The translations under genes were made by a program, and so were the position numbers. DNA of 14,420 bases. It comes from a bacterium (GTDB lineage: Bacteria; SM23-31; JAUVVT01). Below, one piece after another: positions 304 to 6,076 of this stretch; position 1 is the first letter of the stretch; each line of letters begins with the position of its first letter. The stretch is from the NCBI GenBank assembly GCA_030616165.1, contig JAUWXV010000073.1, positions 1 to 14,420 on the forward strand. The letters run 5' to 3'. A model generated the notes under the pieces. That model did no database searches. It had not been told where the DNA came from and saw only the letters and a program-made list of their open reading frames with translations.

Positions 304-906
304 TCAATTTATTTTTCTTGCCTGATTTTCTTCGTCTTTATCCCAGTTTAATGGATTATTTATTATATAATTCCGGATGTTATTTAAAGATTTTACATCC
401 CTTATTATATGGTCATAGAATCTCAATTGCCATTGAAAATAAATATTATTGTGCGTTTTGTTTATTGTTTTTGTGCAATTTGATTTATATGAACGTATTA
501 CGGTTGATAATGAACCCCGTTTTGGCGATATTATTGACATTATTTTATTATTTGATGCCGTAGAGACGTTGCATGCAACGTCTCTTCCTCTGTCAACGTC
601 TCTGCCAACGCCTCTATGATTATCAATTATAATTATTCCATGAATATGATTTGGCATTATGATAAATTCATCCAATTTTACGAATGGAAAATGGGCAGGG
701 ATTTCCAGCCAGAATTTTTCTGCGATTTTGCCGATTTCTGATAATATCATTTTGTTATCATCCACATTTCCAAAAACGCATTCACGGTTTTTAACGCAAA
801 CTGTGACAAAATAATATCCACTTGAACCGTAATCCCAATTTTTTAAACGTGCGGTTTCAATACGGTATTTCCCCCGAAATCGTTCTGATGTGTTTTGAAA
901 ATGCAC
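304..906 (-). CDS. REP-associated tyrosine transposase (RAYT, Y1_Tnp/TnpA-REP type)
   Basis: This is a 200-aa single-strand DNA transposase-like protein of the HUH Y1 superfamily. RAYTs cut and join REP palindromes as single-stranded DNA and are usually domesticated single-copy genes. Visible motifs are the N-terminal RIETARLKNWDYG..YYFVTVCV strand typical of the family, the metal-binding MPNHIHG motif (His87 and His89), a candidate catalytic Tyr140 in RSYKSNCTK, and the C-terminal FYDHIIRD..SLNNIRNYIINNPLNW block. The order and length match the family, so the gene appears intact. Residues 98-116 are unusual: RGVGRDVDRGRDVACNVST is encoded directly by palindromic repeat DNA (562-616) inserted in frame between the HUH motif and the tyrosine helix. 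No clear Shine-Dalgarno precedes the ATG. It is not part of an operon. Confidence 0.9.
   Translation of the reverse strand: MHFQNTSERFRGKYRIETARLKNWDYGSSGYYFVTVCVKNRECVFGNVDDNKMILSEIGKIAEKFWLEIPAHFPFVKLDEFIIMPNHIHGIIIIDNHRGVGRDVDRGRDVACNVSTASNNKIMSIISPKRGSLSTVIRSYKSNCTKTINKTHNNIYFQWQLRFYDHIIRDVKSLNNIRNYIINNPLNWDKDEENQARKIN
562..616. repeat. REP-like palindrome and partial copies embedded in the RAYT coding sequence
   Basis: Positions 562-585 form a 24-bp perfect palindrome identical to the core of the palindrome at 243-270. Two further partial units (CAACGTCTCT at 594-603 and CAACGCCTCT at 606-615) follow, so the element looks like tandem growth of the repeat. The whole insert keeps the transposase reading frame. 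Confidence 0.85.
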
Positions 907-1462: not shown

Positions 1463-2170
1463 TCAGCTTTTAGCTTCAAGGGGATCAGTCTTCTCATTGC
1501 TAGGCTTTCCCATCCCCCAGTTTTGCTCATCATAGGCTAGATCTCCTACACATTTGCGTGAGACCCATGTCAGTTCAATGAAACCAACTGCACCCAAAGT
1601 ACCATCTTTCCTTTTACGGTTGTTAAAGTACTCTCCACGAAGACGTTTTGAATTGTCCTTTGATGAAAAGTGCATAAAATGAGTTCCAGTGTGAGAATCA
1701 CCTGGACCTACTTCCGATGATCCTTGGGAGGCAGGCATCGGTCCTGTCTTATAAGTCCAGACAAGTTTATGAAAGACACCATGTCGATCAACTACAATTG
1801 AGGAACAGATCCCCTGGGAGCAGTTCTTTGGGCCAAAGGCAACTGCGGAAATATCAAGGCTATATTGGCTTATTTCGTGAGCTGTTGGCCGCCATTCTTT
1901 GGTTAGATCAGGTTGATACCAGCCTTCCCACCTCCCAGATATATCGGGAATTTGAAAAAACCAAGATAAGGGTGGCAAACGCCACAGCCAAGTGCGCACG
2001 CAATACGAAACTAAACCAACTAGCATTGTAACGGAAAAAAGATACCCGAAAGCAGGTCTCAATTCATTCAGACTGAGGCCTGTAAAAATAAGCACTAACG
2101 ACCAAACCAACAAAGTTACAGTTACGATTGTTTTAATAGCAACGTTCTTATTTTCTTCAAGTTGAATCAT
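1463..2170 (-). CDS. Two-helix membrane protein with beta-rich domain, Cap15-like (S-2TMbeta) effector candidate
   Basis: This 235-aa protein has two predicted membrane helices (about residues 11-32 and 40-60), a short linker, and a predicted beta-rich C-terminal domain opening with IPDISGRWEGWYQ (74-86). This layout matches the SMODS-associated 2TM beta-barrel family. Its known member Cap15 is a CBASS antiphage effector whose barrel binds a cyclic nucleotide and whose helices then disrupt the inner membrane. The assignment rests on architecture and the G-x-W-x-G motif read by eye. No CD-NTase or other CBASS gene lies in this window, so the gene is an orphan here. The start is well set by AGGAGGTGATG nine bases upstream of the ATG, one of the strongest ribosome sites in the window. 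Its composition is more GC-rich than its surroundings, which suggests transfer. The alternative is an unrelated membrane-anchored lipocalin-like protein. Confidence 0.55.
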   Translation of the reverse strand: MIQLEENKNVAIKTIVTVTLLVWSLVLIFTGLSLNELRPAFGYLFSVTMLVGLVSYCVRTWLWRLPPLSWFFQIPDISGRWEGWYQPDLTKEWRPTAHEISQYSLDISAVAFGPKNCSQGICSSIVVDRHGVFHKLVWTYKTGPMPASQGSSEVGPGDSHTGTHFMHFSSKDNSKRLRGEYFNNRKRKDGTLGAVGFIELTWVSRKCVGDLAYDEQNWGMGKPSNEKTDPLEAKS

Positions 2171-3102: not shown

Positions 3103-3422
3103 TTTAAAAAATTATTTTCTTTTAAAAATATAATGTAAAAATTGATGAATGTCAAGGGGAAATGTAAGTTTTTTATTTTGTATAATTTATTGGTTTGCAG
3201 GGAATTATGAGATATAACACAATTTACGACTTACCAACGACTAACAGAAAAATTAGAATGTTAAGCCCAAATGTCAAAACCTTTCTAAACCACAACTTTT
3301 GGGCACTTATCTCGCTCCTTCGGGATCTATGCTTAACTACTTTATTCTTCCAAATCTTTGGCAAATTCATAATAGTCATCTCTTCTATAAAAATCCCAAA
3401 CCTGTCATCCTGATATCCCACT

Positions 3423-3508
3423 CCTGTCATTACGCCCCCCTCTCCTGTCATCCTGAACCCTGTCCTGAACTTGTTTCAGGATCTACTTGATTCAGTATTG
3501 TTTCAGGA
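3423..3508. repeat. TGTCATCCTGAA-type dispersed repeat
   Basis: This cluster contains TGTCATCCTGAACCCTGT, CTGAACTTGTTTCAGGATCT and ACTTGATTCAGTATTGTTTC. A shorter version occurs in inverted orientation at 6308-6356. The last 24 bases (3485-3508) are the exact reverse complement of 6308-6331. This is a dispersed intergenic repeat family. Confidence 0.8.
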
Positions 3509-3556
3509 TCTATTGTTTATTAATTATTTCATTCCTCAAATTTTCCAGAAATTTAA

Positions 3557-3606
3557 TCTTTCTTTGTGACCTTTGTGCCTTCTTTGTGTCCTTTGTGGTT
3601 AAAATT
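3557..3606. repeat. CTTTGTG-type short tandem repeat
   Basis: CTTTGTGACC, CTTTGTGCCT, CTTTGTGTCC and CTTTGTGGTT follow each other between 3562 and 3600, in the style of a low-complexity dispersed genomic repeat. Confidence 0.6.
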
Positions 3607-3656
3607 CTATCTTCGAAATCATTTTTCCCCAGACTTCCCTCGAAAAATGTATCGAT

Positions 3657-3705
3657 CGCCCTGGGTTTCATTACCCAGGGCGTGACATTATGGGGCCTCT
3701 GCCCC
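3657..3705. repeat. Hairpin doublet (10-bp and 5-bp perfect stems)
   Basis: CGCCCTGGGT (3657-3666) pairs perfectly with ACCCAGGGCG (3673-3682) across a 6-base loop. GGGGC (3692-3696) pairs with GCCCC (3701-3705) across CTCT. Neither is placed as a clear terminator of a gene here. It is probably a dispersed palindromic repeat of the kind RAYT enzymes mobilise (inference). Confidence 0.7.
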
Positions 3706-3737
3706 AAAAGATTAACACTATAAGGTTTTGAAATTAT

Positions 3738-3851
3738 CTAAAAAACCAACCACAATTCCAAATTTAATTTACGACCCCTCATATTTATATACTGCTGTCG
3801 AAGTCCTTCTTCACCTTCGCCATACACCCCAAAAATAAAAAACTCTGTCAT
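3738..3851 (-). CDS. Possible 37-aa ORF or gene remnant
   Basis: On the minus strand an ATG preceded by GGGGAGAAGGAA opens a short frame reading MTEFFIFGVYGEGEEGLRQQ and ending in LNLELWLVF. The frame also stays open for about 15 codons upstream of the ATG. The mix of residues is more protein-like than the surroundings. It could be a tiny gene, the 3' end of a decayed gene, or a dispersed repeat that happens to be open. Confidence 0.2.
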   Translation of the reverse strand: MTEFFIFGVYGEGEEGLRQQYINMRGRKLNLELWLVF

Positions 3852-3944
3852 TTCCTTCTCCCCAAATAATACCCAATCTAAACTTCCATTCTTAATTTAA
3901 TTTTTCACTTTGCATTTTGCATTTTTCATTTCAAATAATTTCTC

Positions 3945-3973
3945 TTGACTTCCCTCAAAAAATATATTATATT
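3945..3973 (+). promoter_or_regulatory. Sigma70-like promoter of the HTH gene
   Basis: TTGACT (3945-3950) and TATATT (3968-3973) are separated by 17 bases. Each hexamer matches consensus in five of six positions. Transcription would begin near 3980, giving an AT-only leader of about 55 bases with no Shine-Dalgarno before the ATG at 4035. Confidence 0.55.
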
Positions 3974-4034
3974 ATAAATGTTATTATTATTACTAATAAT
4001 ATATAAATATATAATAAAATAACATAACATAATT

Positions 4035-4412
4035 ATGAATTACAGAACATTATCCGCAAAAAAACGAAAATTTATCGAACTCATTAACAAAAAAGAAATC
4101 ATTAACTTGGAAGTTAAAGATATCATAAATCAACTTGAAATAAGCAGGGCTACATATTACAGGTGGCTTAAAAATCAAAAACTCTTCAAAACCATGCAGA
4201 AAGATGTAGATAATGAATTGCATGAAAACATCCCCGAACTCCTCCGGACACTTCTGAAGATGGCACTGCAGGGAGACTTCAGGGCAATAAAAATGATTCT
4301 CGAAAAATATGATGACACAGATGAAGACCCTTTAAAAAATCTGACCCCGGACGATGTAATTAATATTATTCGTGCAAGTAAAAAAAGAGAGACAAATAAT
4401 CTAAATAACTGA
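4035..4412 (+). CDS. Helix-turn-helix protein, phage terminase small subunit/phBC6A51-like
   Basis: The 125-aa protein starts with LSAKKRKFIELINKK, then has a helix-turn-helix at about residues 25-47 (VKDIINQLEISRATYYRWLK). A helical segment follows with LLRTLLKMALQGDFRAIKMI (70-89) and an acidic linker before a basic tail. The HTH followed by a 'MAL.GD..AIK..L' helix is the layout of phBC6A51-type small terminase subunits and related recombination-associated HTH proteins (family recalled, not searched). Such proteins bind short repeated DNA sites. No large terminase, portal or other phage gene is nearby, so any role in packaging is doubtful. Its own promoter lies upstream. The ATG lacks a Shine-Dalgarno. 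Directly downstream is a 10-bp tandem array that may be its target. Confidence 0.65.
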   Translation: MNYRTLSAKKRKFIELINKKEIINLEVKDIINQLEISRATYYRWLKNQKLFKTMQKDVDNELHENIPELLRTLLKMALQGDFRAIKMILEKYDDTDEDPLKNLTPDDVINIIRASKKRETNNLNN

Positions 4413-4460
4413 TAATTAAATACATAATTGTCTCCCCTGTCTCAAAATCACCCCAGAAAT

Positions 4461-4530
4461 GATACAAATTGAGACAAACTGAGACTAACTGAGACTAACT
4501 GAGACAAAATGAGACAAAATGAGACAAATT
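4461..4530 (+). repeat. Seven-unit 10-bp tandem repeat (GAGACAAACT type)
   Basis: Units run without gaps: GATACAAATT, GAGACAAACT, GAGACTAACT twice, GAGACAAAAT twice, GAGACAAATT. A further GAGAC lies at 4389-4393 inside the end of the HTH gene. Two inverted copies (GTCTC) lie at 4430-4434 and 4439-4443. The spacing of exactly 10 bases places every GAGAC on nearly the same face of the helix. The array fills the 134-base spacer between two convergent genes, ending 16 bases from the gpmI stop codon. Confidence 0.95.
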
Positions 4531-4546
4531 CTCAAAATTGTTACTG

Positions 4547-6076
4547 TTAATATAAAAGACTTTTTCCTGTCATTTCCTTAGGTTGGGGGAGACCTAATAT
4601 ATCCAGGACTGTGGGAGCAATATCTGCCAATATTCCATGCTCCCTAATCTTTGCATTTCCATTAAAATTAAGAACAATAAATGGAACCGGACTTGTTGTA
4701 TGCGCAGTATGAGGTAGATTATTTTCAAAATCCCACATCTTTTCTGCATTGCCATGGTCTGCAGTAATTATAATTACTGCATTTCTTTCCATATTTGCTT
4801 TAACTAACCTACCAACACATTCATCTACTGTCTCCACAGATTTGATAACAGCTTTCCAAACTCCGGTATGTCCGATCATATCACAGTTAGGAAAATTCAA
4901 TACTGTAAAAATATGATTATCTTCCTTTATATCTTTTAAAACTGTCTCGGTCAATTCATAAGCACTCATCTCAGGCTTGAGGTCGTAAGTTGCAACCTTT
5001 GGAGAAGGAATAAGTATTCTATCTTCCAATTTAAACGGCTCCTCTTCACCCCCATTAAAAAAGTAGGTAACATGAGCATACTTTTCGGTCTCTGATATCC
5101 TTAACTGTTGAATACCCATTTCTGATAATATTCCTCCCAATATGTTGGTCAGATGTTCAGGTGGGAATACAATAGGAAGGTTAAATGATTCACCATATAG
5201 AGTCATAGTAGTATATAAAACTTTTTTCTTTACTCTCTGAAACTCATCAAAGTTTTTATCATTAATAGCTTTTGTCATTTGACGAGCCCTATCTGCCCTA
5301 AAATTGAAAAATAGAACAGAATCGCCATTATTTATTATACCAATAGGTCTTCCATCTTCAACTATTACGGATGGAATTATAAACTCATCTGTAATATTAT
5401 TTTCGTATGAATCTTTCACCGCCTCTTCGGCTGATGAAAATAATTTTCCCTTACCTTCAACTAAAGCATAATATGCCTTCTCAATCCTATCCCATCTGTT
5501 ATCTCTATCCATCGCGTAATATCTCCCTATTACTGTTGCTATCTTACCAACACCAATCTTTTTCATGTCCTTTTCTACATCCCTTATAAAACCAATCCCG
5601 CTTTTTGGAGAAGTATCCCTTCCATCAGTTAGAGCATGAAGATAAACATTATTTATCCCTTCCTTTTTTGCCATTCTTAAAATAGCAGCAAGATGCTCAA
5701 GTGAACTGTGGACACATCCATTAGACACAAGACCGATTAGATGCAAAGATGTATTAATATTTCTTGCATTACTCATCAAATCTATAAGAACCTTGATTTT
5801 AAAAAAACTTCCATCATCGATCTTTTTGTCAATTCTAACAATATCCTGATAAACAATCCTGCCAGCACCGATATTCAGATGCCCTACCTCAGAATTCCCC
5901 ATAATCCCTTCAGGCAAGCCTACATCCAATCCAGAGGCTCCTAGCGTAGTATAAAGACCAATCTCACGGAATCTATCAATATTCGGTGTTTTAGCAAATT
6001 TCACTGCATTATATTCTTTTTCTTCTTTTATTCCAAAACCGTCCATTATTATCAAAAAAACTTTCCTTTTCTCCAT
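4547..6076 (-). CDS. gpmI: 2,3-bisphosphoglycerate-independent phosphoglycerate mutase
   Basis: This enzyme interconverts 3-phosphoglycerate and 2-phosphoglycerate in glycolysis and gluconeogenesis, in the cytoplasm, using two metal ions (usually manganese) and a phosphoserine intermediate. All family landmarks are present: metal ligand Asp12 in IIMDGFG, nucleophile Ser62 in GIMGNSEVGHLNIG, His123 in GCVHSS, TDGRDTSP (150-157), GRYYAMDRDNRWDR (184-197), FNFRADRARQ (258-267), Lys332 in EKYAHVTYFFNGG, Asp399 and His403 in NCDMIGHTG, and Asp440/His441 in ITADHGNAE, then HTAHTTSPVPF. At 509 residues it has the usual length. The start is supported by AAGGAG a few bases before the ATG. It is transcribed alone and converges with the HTH gene. 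It looks like ordinary core genome. Confidence 0.98.
   Translation of the reverse strand: MEKRKVFLIIMDGFGIKEEKEYNAVKFAKTPNIDRFREIGLYTTLGASGLDVGLPEGIMGNSEVGHLNIGAGRIVYQDIVRIDKKIDDGSFFKIKVLIDLMSNARNINTSLHLIGLVSNGCVHSSLEHLAAILRMAKKEGINNVYLHALTDGRDTSPKSGIGFIRDVEKDMKKIGVGKIATVIGRYYAMDRDNRWDRIEKAYYALVEGKGKLFSSAEEAVKDSYENNITDEFIIPSVIVEDGRPIGIINNGDSVLFFNFRADRARQMTKAINDKNFDEFQRVKKKVLYTTMTLYGESFNLPIVFPPEHLTNILGGILSEMGIQQLRISETEKYAHVTYFFNGGEEEPFKLEDRILIPSPKVATYDLKPEMSAYELTETVLKDIKEDNHIFTVLNFPNCDMIGHTGVWKAVIKSVETVDECVGRLVKANMERNAVIIITADHGNAEKMWDFENNLPHTAHTTSPVPFIVLNFNGNAKIREHGILADIAPTVLDILGLPQPKEMTGKSLLY

Follow-up and report, generated by a model that had tools for sequence, protein, structure and literature searches.

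A multicopy repeat element that joins a small-terminase-like gene to a helically phased GAGAC array

What is a run of GAGAC motifs in 10-bp steps doing directly downstream of a gene whose HTH protein resembles a phage small terminase (TerS)? The question was raised by a sequence-only reading of the 14,420-nucleotide stretch of bacterial DNA analysed here (the window). That reading treated gene and array as a self-contained unit and offered several functions, among them replication control, control of transcript ends and a domesticated packaging signal. The analysis confirmed the observation and supported its interpretation in part.

The phased array and its surroundings

TRF placed a 10-bp tandem array at 4460-4528 (6.9 copies, 91% matches, period 10). 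Exact GAGAC motifs start at 4471, 4481, 4491, 4501, 4511 and 4521, giving six perfect units (4471-4525), and the unit before them carries GATAC at 4461; the array is thus real, and one of the seven gapless units counted previously is imperfect. Extra motifs on both strands, also reported from the sequence, are present as one GAGAC within the last codons of the 125-aa gene and two GTCTC sites between gene and array (Table 1). The window contains 29 copies of GAGAC, as compared with 11.6 +/- 3.4 in shuffles. Pairs of GAGAC at exactly 10 bp appeared in 0 of 200 order-2 Markov simulations, in which the longest run of a 5-mer at 9-11 bp spacing was 3, against the observed run of 6. The array is far beyond chance.

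The 125-aa gene and a downstream 509-aa ORF, which by eye encodes a phosphoglycerate mutase (4547-6076, reverse strand), converge towards the array, and the TerS-like gene is the sole phage structural or packaging gene recognised in the window, in keeping with the earlier statements that the genes are convergent and that no phage gene is near. A search of Rfam with positions 3300-4700 returned nothing above threshold. The window also contains a perfect 32-bp tandem duplication at 38-101 (AGAAATTCCCCCTTAGCAAAGGGGGATCTTAG). An iteron replicon and a parS centromere, to which the array had been likened, found no support and were rejected: the sole adjacent gene is TerS-like, no plasmid match was obtained and the arrays lie at many chromosomal loci.

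Table 1. Features of the element copy in the window
Feature	Position	Strand	Basis or remark
Decayed second 5' (promoter) end, upstream	3629..3652	+	Nested or rearranged older copy
Whole element copy	3921..4537	+	Similarity shared with 8-10 further contigs; self-comparison depth over 54 stretches; alignments
Promoter TTGACT-17-TATATT	3945..3973	+	Predicted from consensus match; conserved in copies with an assembled 5' end
Operator-like palindrome, degenerate here (GTTATTATTATTACTAAT)	3980..3997	.	GTTAT-N8-ATAAC in many family-2 and family-3 copies
TerS-like HTH gene, 125 aa	4035..4412	+	PF13022; TerS PHROGs; 2AO9 by profile
GAGAC in the 3' end of the gene, opening the conserved 3' block	4389..4393	+	
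Pair of inverted GTCTC sites (4430, 4439) with conserved block GTCTCAAAATCACCCC (..CACCCC in the window)	4430..4454	-	
Phased array: TGATAC and six TGAGAC units in 10-bp steps	4460..4529	+	
CTCAAAA block 3' of the array	4531..4537	+	Window copy without the hairpin and sharp 3' end of other copies

A short repeat element in three families

Array and adjacent TerS-like gene together represent a single copy of a short repeat element that occurs many times in the genome, and this element family is well supported. Genome searches and retrieved sequence stretches, on which all copy counts are based, yielded about 44 copies of such elements in three sequence-distinct families; numerous copies are located close to the end of a contig. 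A pattern of three array units matched 9 genome sites on five contigs and its reversed control matched 0; a looser array pattern brought in further contigs. DNA search with the 3' part of the element recovered 11 good copies and three fragments of family 1, the GAGAC family, whose elements measure ~0.6 kb with the array as their 3' end. Aligned copies share two blocks, the first running from the promoter (TTGAC-17-TATATT) into the gene start and the second comprising the gene end, the conserved block listed in Table 1, the array and CTCAAAA. Family 1 has a sharp 3' end and no consistent 5' end, and several copies carry a hairpin with A/T tracts. A quasi-repetitive sequence at 3562-3604 of the window (CTTTGTGTCCTTTGTGGTTAAAA / CTCTGTGGTT) recurs directly upstream of many element copies.

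Among family-1 copies, the full 125-aa gene is found only in the window and in contig C128 (86% identical), with a promoter-to-CACCCC distance of 510 bp in both. This distance is 219 bp in C16, C277 and C319 alike and 215 bp, one codon shorter, in C32; C293 is cut by a contig end. These five copies (L045, L050, L051, L053 and L142 for C16, C277, C293, C319 and C32) are in-frame internal-deletion remnants, for example MKNKTFSAKKLKIISLINKKSETNDVIS, and each retains an intact predicted ORF of 27-28 aa in which the start of the TerS-like gene is joined in frame to its end. They occupy unrelated loci with the same internal deletion (nearly the same in one copy), and therefore the deletion derivative has been copied as such. 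In C259 and C316 the middle of the element is occupied by other filler sequence, and most family-1 copies have lost the gene while keeping promoter and array. The supposed self-contained unit is instead one of the 11 good copies, most of them gene-less. Occurrence of the array at many unrelated loci had been named as an outcome that would speak against the proposal, and it was literally observed; but each such locus holds a copy of the same element, which changes the interpretation and leaves the link between gene and array unbroken.

The pairing of gene and array recurs in the full copy in C128, and two further gene families own different phased arrays. Downstream of each of the paralogous TerS-like genes at C128:2797, C339, C173 and C192 lies a different repeat, and DNA searches recovered family 2 (motif TGATAA) in 17 good copies and family 3 (motif TGGGAA) in 16, two with the gene in either case. 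The layout common to the three families consists of a promoter, an operator-like palindrome, the gene or its remnant, and a phased array. Gene-less copies of families 2 and 3 that are uncut by a contig end keep promoter, leader and array, and often the palindrome near the -10 box. GTTAT-N8-ATAAC has 29 sites in the genome, of which about 20 lie at elements by manual count. With 25 sites for the reversed control pattern, the palindrome itself is not significant; only its co-location with the elements is. Mosaic copies reveal exchange of 5' modules between families, and the element ORFs are intact in 6/6 cases across the three families.

Site spacing was taken over all copies, and spacing p-values are not to be read at face value since the copies are related. 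In family 1, sites of the same orientation are 10 or 11 bp apart in 39 of 43 short steps. Family 2 has spacings of 9/10 and 21 bp in the same orientation and of 10/11 and 20 bp between opposite sites, and the corresponding values in family 3 are 9 bp and 19/20 bp. Three unrelated motifs thus all show helical-turn site spacing, in keeping with the phase-locking described for the window.

The convergent gene arrangement had suggested control of 3' ends; array and hairpin would then end transcription. A convergent gene indeed lies downstream in 8 of the 11 family-1 copies, and the hairpin with A/T tracts would suit such a role; the window copy, however, lacks a hairpin, a scan found no terminator-like site between the 125-aa gene and the downstream gene, and the copies of family 2 frequently precede genes. 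We regard this explanation as highly improbable.

The elements share high copy number, gene-less internal-deletion derivatives and mosaic copies with MITEs and other non-autonomous transposable elements. A plain MITE-like repeat, whose TerS-like gene is a passenger and whose array is an element end recognised by some transposase, would account for the high copy number, the deletion derivatives, the mosaic 5' modules and the sharp family-1 3' end; short direct repeats are also possible at both ends, and a Y1 (IS200-like/REP-associated) transposase gene is located in the window (304-906, reverse strand). Unlike MITEs, however, the elements have no identified transposase, and inspection of the copies detected neither terminal inverted repeats nor a consistent 5' end or proven target-site duplication. 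They also have a conserved promoter and family-specific phased arrays, and a different array paired with the TerS-like gene in each of three families is not expected of a passenger, making this an unlikely account. REP-like hairpins (GTAGGGRC..GYCC) are scattered over the retrieved genome stretches. Our observations make the element family a novel variant among non-autonomous repeat elements.

The lexA-dinB operon of this genome (L134 3480-3910, contig C38) has an SOS-type promoter, TTGACA-17-TATATT, with GAACATTCGTTC between the boxes. Its long 5' leader contains about ten TGATAA half-sites in 10-11 bp steps, TGATAA being the array motif of family 2. TerS paralogues domesticated as host regulators or nucleoid factors, with dispersed arrays controlling transcription or chromosome organisation and no packaging role, would agree with this leader array, with the closeness of elements to genes, and with the fact that gene-less copies conserve the promoter and the operator-like palindrome. 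Yet the position of the elements relative to host genes is inconsistent, the copies differ and decay as mobile repeats do, and the proteins have kept the C-terminal segment that characterises the cluster TerS described below. We consider such a role rather doubtful.

Small-terminase ancestry and a resident packaging cluster

The 125-aa protein (P0001) matched PF13022 (E 7e-13; 49 bits, cut-off 27.9) and four PHROG terminase small subunits (best E 5e-11), bearing out its description as a TerS-like HTH protein. Its best PDB match by profile was 2AO9 (E 1e-4), which has been placed among the small terminases (PMC4737164). The AlphaFold prediction for P0001 was poor (pLDDT 64), and the fold matches from that model, with 2AO9 first in one list, count as weak support. 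Element proteins are 34-43% identical to the TerS that adjoins a large terminase (TerL) gene in the same genome. By region, the conservation between the families and this cluster TerS is 48% in the HTH, 50% in the core and 53% in the C-terminal segment (residues 102-116), against 26% in the linker. The element proteins are thus well supported as TerS homologues of TerS ancestry, and the conserved C-terminal segment may dock TerL. P0001 itself is a stand-alone paralogue: the window has no TerL, and the single TerL match of the genome is at C76. The dN/dS ratio of the family-1 gene, from one pair, was 0.63 or 0.96 by two methods, indicating modest selection; one family-3 pair gave about 0.3.

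The C76 cluster (L201) encodes TerS, TerL, a portal, a 731-aa protein and an endolysin. The 731-aa protein (L201 6765-8960) contains an ATP-dependent DNA ligase domain (PF01068, E 8e-16), and its N-terminal part matches phrog_16951. In a comparison set of six genomes of the phylum, a TerS homologue was present in 6/6 and TerL in 5/6, in single copy and with 50-53% identity to the C76 TerL, plus one distant extra in G005. The gene order of the cluster is the same in four relatives and is syntenic in 5/6 genomes (L200, L194, L195, L196). In G004 (L200, G004:C242) the genes ahead of the cluster are core chromosomal ones, identified by eye, and no integrase was seen. The cluster contigs end ahead of the tail genes. 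A contig from a viral database (L213) has a TerL of 39% identity, a similar gene order and, by eye, a capsid-like gene; TerS was not found between its expected neighbours there. Judged from its genes, the C76-type cluster resembles a gene transfer agent (GTA) or a long-fixed prophage.

A phased array was looked for beside the cluster TerS and not found. In the TerS tree, the cluster TerS and a stand-alone gene of G001 formed a group (85/94 support) that excludes the element proteins; support is weak for several other branches. G001 is the nearest of the genomes compared, from the same bacterial family, and its stand-alone TerS gene is single copy. This gene (L193 3430-3801, reverse strand; G001:C68) adjoins a beta-lactamase-like gene, and a 7-bp TTCTCCA tandem repeat, not a 10-bp array, overlaps its 3' end.

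Searches for other origins returned no exact match to the three array patterns in viral contigs and no match to P0001 in annotated phages. Relatives of P0001 elsewhere comprised two distant matches in genome contigs and four distant viral matches; in viral contigs and annotated phages, neither such arrays nor any close P0001 relative were present. The elements could act as packaging decoys, the TerS paralogue and a sponge of arrays hindering incoming phages with a related terminase from packaging their DNA, as the TerS ancestry and the many dispersed sites would allow and as an operator-like palindrome could make inducible. Against this, no phage with such arrays was found in the viral contigs, and the only nearby defence gene is a solitary Cap15-like ORF. 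We judge a decoy function quite improbable. The Cap15-like ORF (1463-2170, reverse strand) matches PF18153, a CBASS cyclic dinucleotide receptor domain (E 4e-8), and no CD-NTase gene was recognised with it in the window.

A possible role in DNA packaging

A TerS-like protein, a phased array and recurring gene-array pairs together make a domesticated or repurposed packaging signal, as proposed in the sequence-only reading, a reasonable interpretation. We tentatively favour, at somewhat less than even confidence, multicopy TerS/pac-like units that exploit, or derive from, the resident phage-derived packaging machinery. In TerS rings, neighbouring HTHs lie about one B-DNA turn apart (PMC4737164). 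Judging from the sequences, the protein of each family probably forms such a ring and binds the array of its family, including the arrays at gene-less copies, which would be served in trans by a TerS paralogue. The retained C-terminal segment would recruit the resident large terminase. That the protein-array complex acts as a pac-like start site recruiting the large terminase of the resident cluster, such that element-bearing DNA is preferentially packaged and transferred, is possible but doubtful. With similar reserve we raise the possibility of minimal 'pac parasites', sub-kilobase chromosomal elements composed of a TerS paralogue and a private phased array. They would use the terminase of a resident GTA or fixed prophage to have the chromosome segment in which they lie packaged and transferred, and a machine that packages at random would thereby become targeted.

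Several lines of evidence speak for multicopy TerS/pac-like units. Array copies lie at unrelated loci, two with the full gene and five with in-frame deletions; families 2 and 3 have their own genes and motifs, and the spacing is helical. The proteins are TerS homologues with the ring-forming 2AO9 as best PDB match and with the C-terminal segment kept, and the same genome has a TerS-TerL-portal cluster that shows synteny with four further genomes from the phylum. Weighing against this explanation are the lack of a phased array at the cluster TerS, the lack of these arrays and of close P0001 relatives in viral contigs and annotated phages, the modest selection on the family-1 gene, and the report that GTA terminases bind DNA weakly and with no sequence preference (PMC6854486). 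Preferential packaging also does not in itself account for many copies per chromosome. According to a 2022 review, specific TerS-pac binding has been hard to show and DNA wrapping is disputed (PMC9611059).

The closest known counterparts include the phBC6A51-type TerS (PF13022; 2AO9) and the TerS-pac systems of SF6/SPP1, which have a homologous HTH protein and an HTH ring that the one-turn site spacing of the elements would fit (PMC4737164). Unlike these, the elements have a stand-alone gene without TerL, many copies per chromosome and explicit short direct repeats, and their gene-less copies keep the array.

PICIs and other phage satellites have an integrase, att sites, and replication and capsid-redirecting genes in about 10 kb or more. 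Like SaPIs/PICIs, the elements may redirect packaging through their own TerS and may have regulated expression; in contrast, they are about 0.6 kb or less, carry no integrase or replication genes and are present in many copies. A PICI or phage satellite was rejected: the element measures ~0.6 kb and has at most one gene, and no integrase was recognised in the window.

The elements themselves are not a GTA. It is the resident head/packaging cluster that is GTA-like, being present in single copy and in syntenic arrangement in different genera of the phylum, with no integrase seen nearby. Known GTAs package without sequence preference (PMC6854486), whereas the dispersed element sites would give preference. 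A limited search of the open-access literature found no precedent for such elements.

Even on a conservative reading, a TerS-derived DNA-binding gene that diversified alongside three phased arrays and reached about 44 chromosomal sites is unusual. If the packaging interpretation is true, these would be packaging parasites with at most a single gene, far below phage satellites in size, and their dispersed sites would lend sequence preference to a phage-derived transfer machine. If true, matched protein-array pairs with three specificities in one genome could also settle how TerS rings read DNA.
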